Assembly (NCBI GenBank): GCA_025060595.1
Contig: JANXBX010000021.1
Span: forward strand, 1-7,222
DNA: 7,222 nucleotides
Direction of reading: 5' to 3'
From: Synergistota bacterium
GTDB lineage: Bacteria; Synergistota; GBS-1
Below, in pieces: positions 1-7,222 of the stretch. The notes under the pieces were generated by a model that saw only the letters and a program-made list of their open reading frames with translations, was not told where the DNA came from and ran no database searches. Every line of letters starts with the position of its first letter. Position 1 is the stretch's first letter. The position numbers and the translations under genes are program-made.

Positions 1-69
<69 letters not shown>

Positions 70-1698: not shown

Positions 1699-3375
1699 AT
1701 GACAGATATAAGTGTAGTGCTTAGCGGAGAGGCAGGGCAAGGAATTCAAACGCTAGAACATGTTCTTACCCATATACTGAAAAACTCAGGGCTACATGTC
1801 TTTGCTACAAAGGAGTATATGTCCCGCATTAGAGGAGGGAACAATACGACCGAGATTAGAGTCTCATCAGAAAGGATTCGCGCTTTAATCGATAGAATTG
1901 ATATATTAATACCTCTGGGGAAAAACGCAACCTACAGGCTTGAAAACCGCATAACCGATAAAACTCTTGTAATAGGTGAAAGGGAATTTATAGAAACATC
2001 GCCCGGTGAGAAGATAGAGGTCCCCTTCTTGGAGATGGCAAAACAGTTAGGAAACAAGCTTTTTGCAAACTCTATAGCGATAGGCTTCCTATCGGGCTTA
2101 TTAGGAGCCGATGAATCAGCGCTAGAAAATCAAATTAAAGAGCAGTTTAAGGGAAAAGGAGAGGAAATAATTAAAAGCAATACACTTGCTGCAACCGAAG
2201 GCTACAAACGAGGCAAGGAGATCTCCCACAATATAGGGTTATCTCTGAAGAAGCACGAGTATGTTAAAGATGAGCTCATATTAAACGGAGCGGAATCCGT
2301 TGGCCTTGGAGCAATCGCTGGAGGCTGTAACTTCGTTTCATCTTATCCGATGTCACCATCTACATCTGTACTGGTCTTTATCGCTCAACACAAGAATGAT
2401 TTCGGAATAGTTGTTGAACAAGCGGAAGATGAAATAGCCGCCATGAACATGATTATAGGAGCTTGGTACGCTGGCGCAAGAGGATTAGTTACAACATCAG
2501 GTGGAGGATTCGCCTTAATGGGGGAGGCCTTAAGCCTTGCCGGGATGCTAGAAACCCCTGTTGTGATACACCTCGCTCAGAGGCCAGGCCCTGCAACTGG
2601 ACTACCAACAAGAACGGAACAGGGAGATCTAAACCTAGCACTATATGCAGGACATGGAGAATTCCCAAGAATAATATACTCACCCGGAAACATAGAAGAG
2701 GCCTTTTATATCACTCAGATGGCTTTCAACATGGCTGATAAATACCAAATCCCGGTGTTCATACTAACGGACCAGTATCTTATAGATTCCTTTTACAATT
2801 TACCACCATTCGATTTAAAGAACATAAGGGTTGAAAAGTACATAGTTAAAACTGAGAAAAGCTATTTAAGATATTCCCTTACCGAAGATGGCATATCTCC
2901 CAGGGGAGTCCCAGGTTACGGCGAGGGCTTGGTAAAGGTGGATAGCGACGAACACGATGAATACGGACACATCACAGAAGACTTTGAAATCAGAAGGAAG
3001 ATGGTAGAAAAAAGACTAAAGAAAGGAGAGAAATTAAAAGAGGAAATCCTGAAACCCAAGCTTATAGGAGATGAAAACTTTCAAACACTCATAGTGGCCT
3101 GGGGATCAACCTTAGAGGTAATAAGAGAAGCGATATCCGATATGAAAGGGATCGCTTTACTTCATTTCTCACAAGTATGGCCGATCGATAGCTCCGTAGT
3201 CAAGCTTCTAGAGAGAGCCAAAAAGGTTATAGCTATTGAAGCTAATGCAACGGGGCAGTTTGCAAACCTAATAAGACAAACAACCGGATTTTATATAAAG
3301 GAGAGAATCTTAAAGTACAACGGCATTCAATTTTCGGTAGAAGAGTTAAAAAGTAAGATTGAAGGAGTGATATAA
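1699..3375 (+). CDS. korA: 2-oxoacid:ferredoxin oxidoreductase, fused gamma-alpha subunit
   Basis: A 558-residue subunit in which the gamma domain is fused ahead of the alpha (pyrimidine-binding) domain. The gamma part (about 1-180) shows GEAGQGIQ (10-17) and [10 protein letters not shown]. The alpha part (about 190-558) shows YPMSPST (216-222, the position of the family's YPITPS substrate-loop motif), TTSGGG (265-270), [17 protein letters not shown] (295-311), AWGS (467-470) and EANATGQ (514-520). With KorB it oxidatively decarboxylates a 2-oxoacid with CoA to acyl-CoA, CO2 and reduced ferredoxin, or runs in reverse. 2-Oxoglutarate is the likeliest substrate from subunit architecture, but YPMSPST is not the textbook motif, so a branched-chain or broader 2-oxoacid is possible. 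Length is normal for the fused form. AAGGAGGG sits 6 bases before the ATG, and one base separates its stop from korB. Confidence 0.93.
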
Positions 3376-4333: not shown

Positions 4334-5791
4334 ATGAAGATACCAAGATGTATGAGCACACAACACCCTGATAATGTTATCTCTCCATTTTTCACTAATA
4401 ACGCGATATTGGGAGGAGAGGATGAAATAGAAGAAGCCTTTTATGTTTTTTCTCACCTTGGATGCGACGAACAGATGTGGGACTATGAGGGAAAAGAAGT
4501 GGATAACTTCGTAGTTAAAAAGCTCCTCACCAAATATGAAAGCTTCTTTAAAGAGAAACCTTTAGGCAAGGAAGTATTCATAACCCTAAGAGTCCCAAAC
4601 CCGGCCATTGAAAAAGAGGAAGCGAAAATCCTTTTAGAAACTTTAGAGAGCATACCAAGATCTTACGATGTAGCCAAGCTTTTCTATGGAGATGATATCG
4701 CCCCTATCTTTGAGGTAATTCTTCCTATGACCACTTCAGCTGATGAACTTAATAGTATTTATTACTACTACAGCGATTTTGTTACAGGAAAACAAAAAAG
4801 AATTATAGAAAAAACGAAAATAACCATTGGGGATTGGATCGGAGAATTCAAGCCGGAGAAGATAAACGTCATCCCACTTTTTGAGAATAAGGAAAGCATG
4901 CTAAATGCTCACGAAGTAGTCAGAAGTTACTTAGAAGATAAGGATATACCTTACCAAAGGGTGTTCTTGGCGAGATCTGACCCGGCAATGAACTATGGTA
5001 TAGTAAGCGCTGTAATATTCAACAAGATAGCCTTAAGTAAGCTACATAAGCTTTCTATTGAAATAGGCAAGGAGATATACCCCATAATAGGGGTAGGCTC
5101 AGCCCCATTTAGGGGGAACCTAAGGCCGCAAACCGTTGAAAGAGTCTTAGAAGAATATCCGAGCGTATATACATTCACTATACAGTCTTCCTTTAAATAC
5201 GATAACACCCCTGAAGAGGCAAGAAAGGGGATAAAGAGGATAAAGAAAACTGTTCCGAGGCCACCTCAAGAAATAGATGAAAATAAAGCCTTAGAAATAG
5301 CTGAAAGGTATTCAAGGGAATATCAGAGCTGGATAGTCAAGCTTGCTCCCCTAATAAATAAGGTTGCAAAGTATGTACCTCAGAGAAGAAAAAGAAAGCT
5401 CCACATTGGACTTTTCGGATACTCAAGAAAACTTGGAGATGTAAGCTTACCCCGTGCTATAGCCTTTACTGCAGCACTATACTCAGTAGGGTTACCTCCA
5501 GAGGTATTCGCTTTAAACTCCTTAACTAAAGAGGACCTTAACTTCTTAAAAGATGTCTATATCGGTTTTAAATGCGATATTAAGGATGCGCTTAAGTTCT
5601 CAAACGTAAATGGGAAGCTATTCCCCAAAGAGCTAAAGGAGGCTATAGAAAAGCTTGAGATAGAATTTGAAGAGGACGAGGAACACAAAGAGCTAACCGA
5701 ATTTATAGTGAAACGTCTTGAGGAGGGAAAAACTGAAGACCTGGAAAAATACATTTTAAGGGCAGCACATATAAGAAAATTCCTAGGATAA
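4334..5791 (+). CDS. ppcA: Phosphoenolpyruvate carboxylase, archaeal type
   Basis: This 485-residue protein is the short, 'atypical' PEP carboxylase (PEPcase type 2), which makes oxaloacetate and phosphate from PEP and bicarbonate. Its start, MKIPRCMSTQHPDNV, and the following GGEDEIEEAFYVFSHLGCDE are hallmarks of the archaeal enzymes. The catalytic Arg-rich loop GVGSAPFRGNLRP (253-265) is intact, as is the C-terminal LFGYSRKLGDVSLPRAIAF block. Length equals that of archaeal PpcA (about 480-500) and is roughly half that of the usual ~900-residue bacterial enzyme, so it is complete and not a fragment. AGGGAG ends 10 bases before the ATG. It lies 108 bases after korB in the same direction, with its own promoter; together they would supply C4 and C5 skeletons. 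The archaeal-type form is unusual in bacteria and may have been acquired by transfer. Confidence 0.95.
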   Translation: MKIPRCMSTQHPDNVISPFFTNNAILGGEDEIEEAFYVFSHLGCDEQMWDYEGKEVDNFVVKKLLTKYESFFKEKPLGKEVFITLRVPNPAIEKEEAKILLETLESIPRSYDVAKLFYGDDIAPIFEVILPMTTSADELNSIYYYYSDFVTGKQKRIIEKTKITIGDWIGEFKPEKINVIPLFENKESMLNAHEVVRSYLEDKDIPYQRVFLARSDPAMNYGIVSAVIFNKIALSKLHKLSIEIGKEIYPIIGVGSAPFRGNLRPQTVERVLEEYPSVYTFTIQSSFKYDNTPEEARKGIKRIKKTVPRPPQEIDENKALEIAERYSREYQSWIVKLAPLINKVAKYVPQRRKRKLHIGLFGYSRKLGDVSLPRAIAFTAALYSVGLPPEVFALNSLTKEDLNFLKDVYIGFKCDIKDALKFSNVNGKLFPKELKEAIEKLEIEFEEDEEHKELTEFIVKRLEEGKTEDLEKYILRAAHIRKFLG

Positions 5792-5832
5792 AGAGGGCTG
5801 GATAGCGCAGAGACTATTTAATCTCATGCATC

Positions 5833-5855
5833 TTCCTTAGAAGTTACTATAGGGA
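5833..5855. terminator. Weak hairpin between convergent ppcA and parA
   Basis: In the 55-base gap between the two convergent stops, TTCCTTAG, a six-base loop and CTATAGGGA could pair as about eight base pairs with one bulge and one G-T pair. The right arm overlaps the parA stop, and only a four-T run follows at 5859-5862. It may serve as a shared terminator but is weak; no better candidate is visible. Confidence 0.2.
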
Positions 5856-6620
5856 AGCTTTTCGAGCAATCACCTTTAAAACCTCATCTGTTAAATATTT
5901 ATAGTCCATTGCTCCCTTACTTCGAGGAGCATAAAACTTAATAGGGCTTTTAGATTCGAAAGCCTCAACAAGCTTTATATCCATTCTTATTTGAGGTAAA
6001 ATTTTATCTTTCCCATACTCGTCAGCTATTCTTTTAAGAATGCACTTATGATGCTGAACTCTAGAGTTAACCATAATAGGAACAAAGCCAAGAAGCTTTA
6101 AAGAAGGGTTATCTTTGATCACAATCCTCAAAAAGGTCTTCGCCAAGCTTATAATGCCTTCTGCAGATAGAAAATGAGGCAAGAAGGGGATCAAAAGGAA
6201 ATCTGAAACTGTTAAAGCATTAAGAAGAAGGGCATCTAATGATGGAGGTGTATCTATAATAACGAAATCGAAATCCTTTAAAAACCTGCTTTTAATCAAG
6301 GCCTCCTTCAATAGTCGACTATCTCCCATAATACTGCTGTGCTCAAAGGAGTAGTTAGCAGGCATAAGGAATAGTCCATTCCACTTTGTAGAATAAAGAC
6401 AAGAATCAACATCAAAATTAGGATTTAGGAAGAGATCATGAATAGTCTTGTGATCAAGCGAAAAAGAAAAACCCAAACCTAGCGTGGCATGAGCCTGACT
6501 ATCCAGGTCAATAACTAAAACTTTCCGGCCACGGGAGGAAAGCTCCGCAGCCAGATTAACAACAGTTGTAGTCTTACCTGTTCCACCCTTGCGATTGCTA
6601 ACGGATATGATCACAGCCAT
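5847..6620 (-). CDS. ParA/Soj-family ATPase, MCP-linked
   Basis: A 257-residue ParA-type ATPase without an N-terminal DNA-binding extension, so of the short Soj/MinD-like size. It has the deviant Walker A KGGTGKTT (11-18, signature Lys11), switch I DLDSQ (38-42, where DLDPQ is usual), Walker B VIIDTPPS (120-127) and the family C-terminal pattern IKLVEAFESKSPI (215-227). ParA ATPases dimerise with ATP and position chromosomes, plasmids or protein clusters. No ParB gene is present; instead it follows a chemoreceptor gene by 3 bases, so a ParC-like role in placing a chemotaxis array is an attractive inference. The ATG at 6620 has AAGGG directly abutting it; GTG 6614, two codons in, has that AAGGG at a good 6-base distance and could be the true start. 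The symbol is left blank because the cargo is unknown. Confidence 0.88.
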   Translation of the reverse strand: MAVIISVSNRKGGTGKTTTVVNLAAELSSRGRKVLVIDLDSQAHATLGLGFSFSLDHKTIHDLFLNPNFDVDSCLYSTKWNGLFLMPANYSFEHSSIMGDSRLLKEALIKSRFLKDFDFVIIDTPPSLDALLLNALTVSDFLLIPFLPHFLSAEGIISLAKTFLRIVIKDNPSLKLLGFVPIMVNSRVQHHKCILKRIADEYGKDKILPQIRMDIKLVEAFESKSPIKFYAPRSKGAMDYKYLTDEVLKVIARKASL

Positions 6621-6623
6621 CCC

Positions 6624-6947
6624 TTAAAATAGCTCTACCTTGGGTCCTTCCTTTGAAAAAGCAATATCTCTATTAAACACCTGGTTATGAATCTCCCTTT
6701 GGGCGTGCATAACATATTCTTGATATAACTCCTCAAGCATCTTATCCATACTTAACGCCTCTTTGCTTTCCCCACTTAAATAAGAGATCACCGAAGAGTT
6801 ATAACTTGCAAGCTTACGCAAACCGCTACAAACTTTCTCAATCTTCTGCCTAACTACATCCTGAAACTGAATTTCACCTAATAAAGCTGTTAAAGTAGAG
6901 CTTATATCCTCATGCTGAGACTTAATAGTATAAAGAATCTCCCTCAC
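6624..6947 (-). CDS. C-terminal part of a chemoreceptor-like protein (frame-disrupted), with QFQDVVRQ motif
   Basis: 107 residues counted from a GTG at 6947, but this GTG has no ribosome-binding site and the frame stays open upstream to 7037, encoding a helical stretch ([20 protein letters not shown]). It is therefore read best as the 3' part of the MCP gene entering from the right edge, separated by a one-base frame change. The piece is helical and contains GEIQFQDVVRQKIE (motif bases 6869-6846), a segment found at the tail of many MCP-like proteins. Asp and Gln four residues apart there recall the CheZ phosphatase pattern (QDFQDLTGQ). The last 40 or so residues are charged, without a recognised motif. 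The stop TAA lies 3 bases before parA. Confidence 0.6.
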   Translation of the reverse strand: MREILYTIKSQHEDISSTLTALLGEIQFQDVVRQKIEKVCSGLRKLASYNSSVISYLSGESKEALSMDKMLEELYQEYVMHAQREIHNQVFNRDIAFSKEGPKVELF

Positions 6948-6964
6948 TATTAAGCAAGTGGAAT

Positions 6965-7222
6965 CTAGATCCTCAGCAATTTTAGAAGCGGCAACCTTAA
7001 CTTTGTCAAACTTTGAAAAAGCTCCTCCCTTAAAATTTCACCTAAGATTCTATTCATGTCTATACTAATTCTTTCAGAGAAGCCCCTTACCTCTTTCATA
7101 AAGTTCTCAGAAAGAGCTTTGGTTCTTTCAGAAAGCTTTCTAATCTCATCTGCAACAACAGCAAATCCTTTGCCATGCTTGCCAGCACGAGCTGCCTCAA
7201 TAGCAGCATTCAAAGCAAGTAA
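6965..7222 (-). CDS. Methyl-accepting chemotaxis protein, signalling tip (partial, frameshifted)
   Basis: The frame is open at the right edge, so the sensor, membrane and HAMP parts, and the start, lie outside. The visible 85 codons begin [20 protein letters not shown] and continue [14 protein letters not shown], the almost invariant hairpin tip of bacterial MCPs that contacts CheA and CheW. After about 55 further residues the frame meets TAG at 6967-6965; the last ~15 residues ([16 protein letters not shown]) look unlike an MCP helix, whereas the frame one base back gives a heptad-like helix that leads directly into the 6624-6947 segment. The natural protein is probably a single receptor spanning 7222 to 6624 with its frame broken near 7016-7020. 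It could be a pseudogene, a slippage-controlled gene or a sequencing error. Confidence 0.75.
7016..7020 (-). other. Probable frameshift site in the MCP gene (T5 run on the coding strand)
   Basis: On the coding strand the zero frame reads GAG CTT TTT CAA and soon stops at 6967-6965; one base back it reads TTT TCA AAG and stays open to 6624. Both frames are open only from 7037 to 6968, so the break lies there. One extra T in this run would restore a single continuous protein (REELFSKFDK). Confidence 0.65.

Follow-up and report, generated by a model that had tools for sequence, protein, structure and literature searches.

The chemoreceptor gene at one end of the window (the whole stretch of DNA analysed, 7,222 bp, which is the entire contig C21 of genome G000, an assembly of 1.86 Mb in 34 contigs that is 99% complete) is, as judged from translation and homologue comparison, truly split by a one-base reading-frame break. 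The reading that we prefer, with a probability of roughly 0.64, is that a single-base indel within 6968-7037 would have removed the receptor reading frame, in a laterally acquired chemosensory island that is starting to decay. The product would end just past the hairpin tip and lack both the C-terminal helix and the tail, so that a functional receptor is not expected and receptor function has probably been lost. The island, acquired between the genes for PEP carboxylase and peroxiredoxin, may be at the beginning of its decay because there is an internal stop in its cheR gene as well. As a finding the frame break is modest, namely a recent lesion within a chemosensory island gained by lateral transfer; the more useful by-product is a family of short membrane receptors that belong to ParA-linked chemosensory clusters and have a CheZ-like active-site stretch in their tails. 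Feature coordinates are collected in Table 1.

Table 1. Features of the split chemoreceptor gene, its surroundings and the related island genes (window coordinates unless another contig or locus is named).
Feature	Position	Strand	Evidence or remark
MCP hairpin tip, visible 5' part of chemoreceptor	6968..7222	-	PF00015, E=1.9e-18; N-terminal side cut by contig end
Premature TAG ending the tip frame	6965..6967	-	Translation
Zone that must hold the frame break	6968..7037	-	24 junctions, 158-164 bits against homologue profile
T5 run, one among many possible indel sites	7016..7020	-	Plus strand AAAAA
Remainder of receptor in the -1 frame: putative C-terminal helix and tail, end PKVELF	6624..7037	-	blastp, 8 homologues matched in their C-terminal part (best E=2.7e-21); alignment
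C-terminal KVELF	6627..6641	-	(K/R)(I/L)ELF is the end of nearly all homologues
QFQDVVRQ, CheZ-like FQDxxxQ motif in tail	6846..6869	-	NF041271 Phos_CheZ, E=6e-6; alignment with E. coli CheZ QDFQDLTGQ
Archaeal-type PEP carboxylase flanking the island on the left	4334..5791	+	PF14010; peroxiredoxin directly next in two relatives
ParA-type ATPase, intact, last island gene on C21	5847..6620	-	AAA_31, E=4e-39; 45% identity over 252 aa to L063 ParA
Repeat at contig break	7146..7222	.	76 of 77 bases shared with C17:732-808, which lies within a different MCP gene
cheR in-frame TGA at conserved Cys codon	L100 (G000:C22), about 2778-2780	-	Homologues have Cys in IFCRNLLIYFDD
Proposed chemosensory island separating the PEP carboxylase and peroxiredoxin genes	Window 5792-7222, L100, L009 1-1345, L173, L174	.	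Empty site in two relatives

The first-pass annotation had described a tip frame that stops at TAG 6967-6965 and a -1 frame that has TGA 7040-7038 as its upstream block and stays open between 7037 and a stop at 6624, with a TTTTT run (AAAAA on the plus strand) where both frames are open, and translation bore out each of these points. The tip fragment passes the PF00015 cut-off for an MCP signalling domain (67 bits against 34.6); the antiparallel hairpin is interrupted in its frame by the TAG, and no Pfam domain was matched by the -1 frame part (7037 to 6624). By blastp, this part aligns with the C-terminal portion of eight homologous loci from genome collections. In seven of them, all from other phyla (Nitrospirae, Deltaproteobacteria, Geobacter, other Proteobacteria, Anaeroferrophillacea, Methylotuvimicrobium, and Paludibacterium), a single ORF of about 410-427 aa that ends in (K/R)(I/L)ELF combines an N-terminal region with the MCP tip and the tail, and the ORF of the eighth (L064) holds the tail only. 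The claim that the -1 frame continues the same protein is thus supported by 7/8 loci, in which one protein spans both frames and which neither end at the TAG nor encode the tail as a gene of its own; compared with these intact homologues, the window gene is disrupted in the way that a pseudogene would be. Three plasmid or megaplasmid receptors, whose neighbours are annotated, have the same layout.

When read through both frames, the composite receptor is 199 aa long; against the homologue profile it reaches 158-164 bits, whereas its two pieces taken singly reach 70 and 89 bits. The scores of the 24 possible junctions between 7037 and 6968 differ by only 6 bits, so the profile is unable to name the affected base. 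Accordingly, the earlier picture of a single receptor with a one-base break and about 200 visible residues holds; the break may lie anywhere in the zone, the T5 run being one candidate site. Only about 200 residues are visible because the contig stops at 7222, and the missing N-terminal half was not recovered by a search of those contigs of this genome that are longer than about 2.5 kb.

The broken gene belongs to a set of chemosensory genes (ParA, MCP, CheA, response regulator, CheR, HEAT, and CheB) that are distributed over several contigs. On C22 the transcription order is CheB-HEAT-CheR-RR-CheA, all on one strand with CheA at the contig end, and on C21 it is MCP-ParA; related clusters in Nitrospirae, Deltaproteobacteria/Geobacter, and Proteobacteria are ordered CheR-RR-CheA-(STAS)-RR-MCP followed by ParA or RR, and in L062 and L063 ParA directly follows the MCP as it does in the window. 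In two related genomes, G001 (same genus) and G003, peroxiredoxin comes about 80-95 bp after PEP carboxylase and is itself followed by a MarC-like gene. Since in the present genome peroxiredoxin and the MarC-like gene lie on C17, where they adjoin another MCP gene that is open and appears to be part of the same island, the chemosensory genes of C21, C22, and C17 are most simply read as one island between PEP carboxylase and peroxiredoxin, the contig joins being inferred. The catalytic part of the C22 CheA is 59% identical to the CheA of the Nitrospirae locus L060 and at most 45% identical to any CheA in 20 relatives, and the window ParA is closer to that of L063 (45% identity) than to the best ParA-type proteins of the relatives (29-33%). 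Both this Nitrospirae-like CheA and the receptor tail, found in 0 of 184 other genomes sampled in the phylum, agree with lateral gain of the island. C21 was also considered as a contaminant of the genome bin and rejected, because its PEP carboxylase is 86% identical to that of a same-genus genome and its GC content is like the rest. At the opposite end of the contig, window positions 1-69 on the minus strand hold the 5' end of a 16S rRNA gene (RF00177), cut off by the contig edge.

A second lesion was found in cheR on C22, where a TGA replaces the Cys of the conserved IFCRN stretch; the Pfam CheR profile is matched at positions 1-141 before the TGA and at 143-193 after it in the same frame, and this lesion is a substitution rather than a homopolymer indel. 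Selenocysteine at this TGA was rejected, given that no SelB was detected above the cut-off (the best match being IF-2) and no Rfam element was found there, and UGA recoding was rejected because internal stops are absent from 266 conserved genes. This number comes from a census by tblastn, with G003 proteins as queries against 515 kb of the present genome and inspection of the candidates: the 266 conserved genes, with 92,807 aligned residues, yielded 0 true frame changes or internal stops. The candidates set aside were a two-gene altronate dehydratase that has an ATG of its own, a shadow ORF on the antisense strand, and stops located upstream of start codons or beyond gene ends. The background is therefore below about 3 lesions per 278 kb (95% bound), under which two lesions in the 5.7 kb of island visible here have p of about 0.002 (Poisson, mean 0.06), which ties the lesions to the island or its contigs.

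The main competing explanation is that assembly errors near the ends of small contigs gave rise to the frame break, possibly to the cheR stop as well, and that the real gene is intact, which we consider unlikely but worth weighing seriously. The receptor lesion lies 185-254 bp from a contig end, this end being situated in a repeat shared with C17, and the only two lesions found are both on small contigs (C21, 7.2 kb; C22, 4.4 kb). Moreover, the tail motif and C-terminus are fully conserved: the tail retains every conserved residue and has no further stop, so any decay would have to be very young. On the other hand, the other genes of these contigs are open (KorA, KorB, PEP carboxylase, and ParA on C21; HEAT, RR, and CheA on C22), the break zone is unique in the genome, leaving no collapsed repeat to blame, and a substitution such as that in cheR is not a homopolymer error. 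Two different lesions in one acquired island, against none in the 266 genes elsewhere, favour real decay over assembly error. We infer, with the census as indirect support, that the lesions are real mutations in the DNA of the organism; decay of a dispensable acquired island is a simpler reading than a local drop in assembly quality. Among the three causes offered by the first-pass annotation, a recent pseudogene is thus the best supported, with a second (nonsense) lesion in the same island. As for the contig end itself, its last 77 bases match the C17 repeat at 76 positions, indicating that the contig broke at this repeat; the flanks of the two MCP genes around 7146-7222 and C17:732-808 differ, and the shared segment may be a gene-conversion tract or a contig-end artefact.

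It is quite improbable that programmed -1 frameshifting or transcriptional slippage yields a full receptor from the split gene. On CTT TTT CAA a single tRNA could slip by -1 at TTT, and the purine-rich stretch AGGGAGGAG stands immediately before the run. However, the in-frame heptamer is G CTT TTT rather than the canonical X XXY YYZ, the stimulator is improperly spaced, and the homologues are single-frame, with none seen split. A Shine-Dalgarno-like stretch that abuts a slip site, as AGGGAGGAG does here, favours +1 shifts, and a +1 shift at this position meets a TGA after three codons. Five-base runs such as this one are short for polymerase slippage.

Even less probable is the phase variation that had been suggested earlier, in which slippage at the T5 run, situated inside the break zone, would toggle the receptor between on and off states across the population. 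Contingency loci usually need mononucleotide runs of about 8 or more, and the longest run in the zone is 5; A5/T5 runs are ubiquitous in this genome (4.9 per kb, and present in 27% of random 73-base stretches). Homology also fails to place the indel in the run, and slippage would leave the cheR substitution unexplained. The presence of a short homopolymer does not by itself make a broken gene a case of phase variation. Finally, a tail encoded as a separate gene with its own start can practically be dismissed: a GTG at 6947 does start a 107-aa ORF, but no ribosome-binding site is seen ahead of it, homology already begins at residue 8 of the 137-codon frame, ahead of this GTG, and tail and tip are continuous in seven loci.

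The tail that the frame break separates from the receptor holds QFQDVVRQ, and in the homologue alignment QFQDVxRQ is invariant and aligned with FQDLTGQ of E. coli CheZ; in CheZ, AxxFQ stands directly ahead of DxxxQ (PMC7750401). The window tail matches the NCBIfam CheZ model NF041271 with E=6e-6 and 26 bits, far below the cut-off of 350 bits, and does not match PF04344. For other members of the receptor family, E values with NF041271 range from 4e-6 to 0.035, the matches being in a similar register about the FQDxxxQ stretch; neither two further MCPs encoded in this genome nor L064 and L075 match the model. Comparison of the tail with six CheZ sequences by hhalign placed the motifs in register without significance, a PDB profile search with the tail gave chance matches only, and the AlphaFold model of the homologue L060 (mean pLDDT 64) was too weak for a fold search. 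A literature search for receptor-CheZ fusions found nothing. The CheZ-like motif may thus serve as a lead rather than as a sign of CheZ membership. The receptor tails of L060-L067 and L074-L076 carry FQDxxxQ, with FQD changed to YQD in L076, and their (K/R)(I/L)ELF end hardly varies. Tentatively, and at odds that we regard as rather low, this receptor family might have its own CheZ-like phosphatase element, in which FQDxxxQ would act together with an end that perhaps docks a response regulator, so that the array would help to switch off its own signal; the frame break here would then cut off exactly that module. If the tail were active, the phosphatase would be sited on the receptor itself.

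Compared with known systems, the tail has in common with the CheZ phosphatase (NF041271; PF04344) the FQDxxxQ active-site stretch, in the same profile register in several homologues; however, CheZ is a free protein and the window tail is the end of a receptor. The closest likeness is with the short transmembrane MCPs of CheB-HEAT-CheR-RR-CheA-STAS-RR-MCP(-ParA) clusters, a gene order that resembles class F9 (Vibrio cholerae cluster I). These MCPs are the same two-part protein, with an MCP tip and an FQDxxxQ/(K/R)(I/L)ELF tail, and have the same neighbours as the window gene, ParA included. Unlike them, the window gene is broken and its N-terminal half lies off the contig, and unlike those clusters it comes from a phylum in which no other sampled genome has it. 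With young bacterial pseudogenes in laterally acquired islands, the present locus shares a single-base frameshift and a nonsense mutation in one cluster, conserved flanking genes, and an empty site in relatives, and there is no difference in kind between them.
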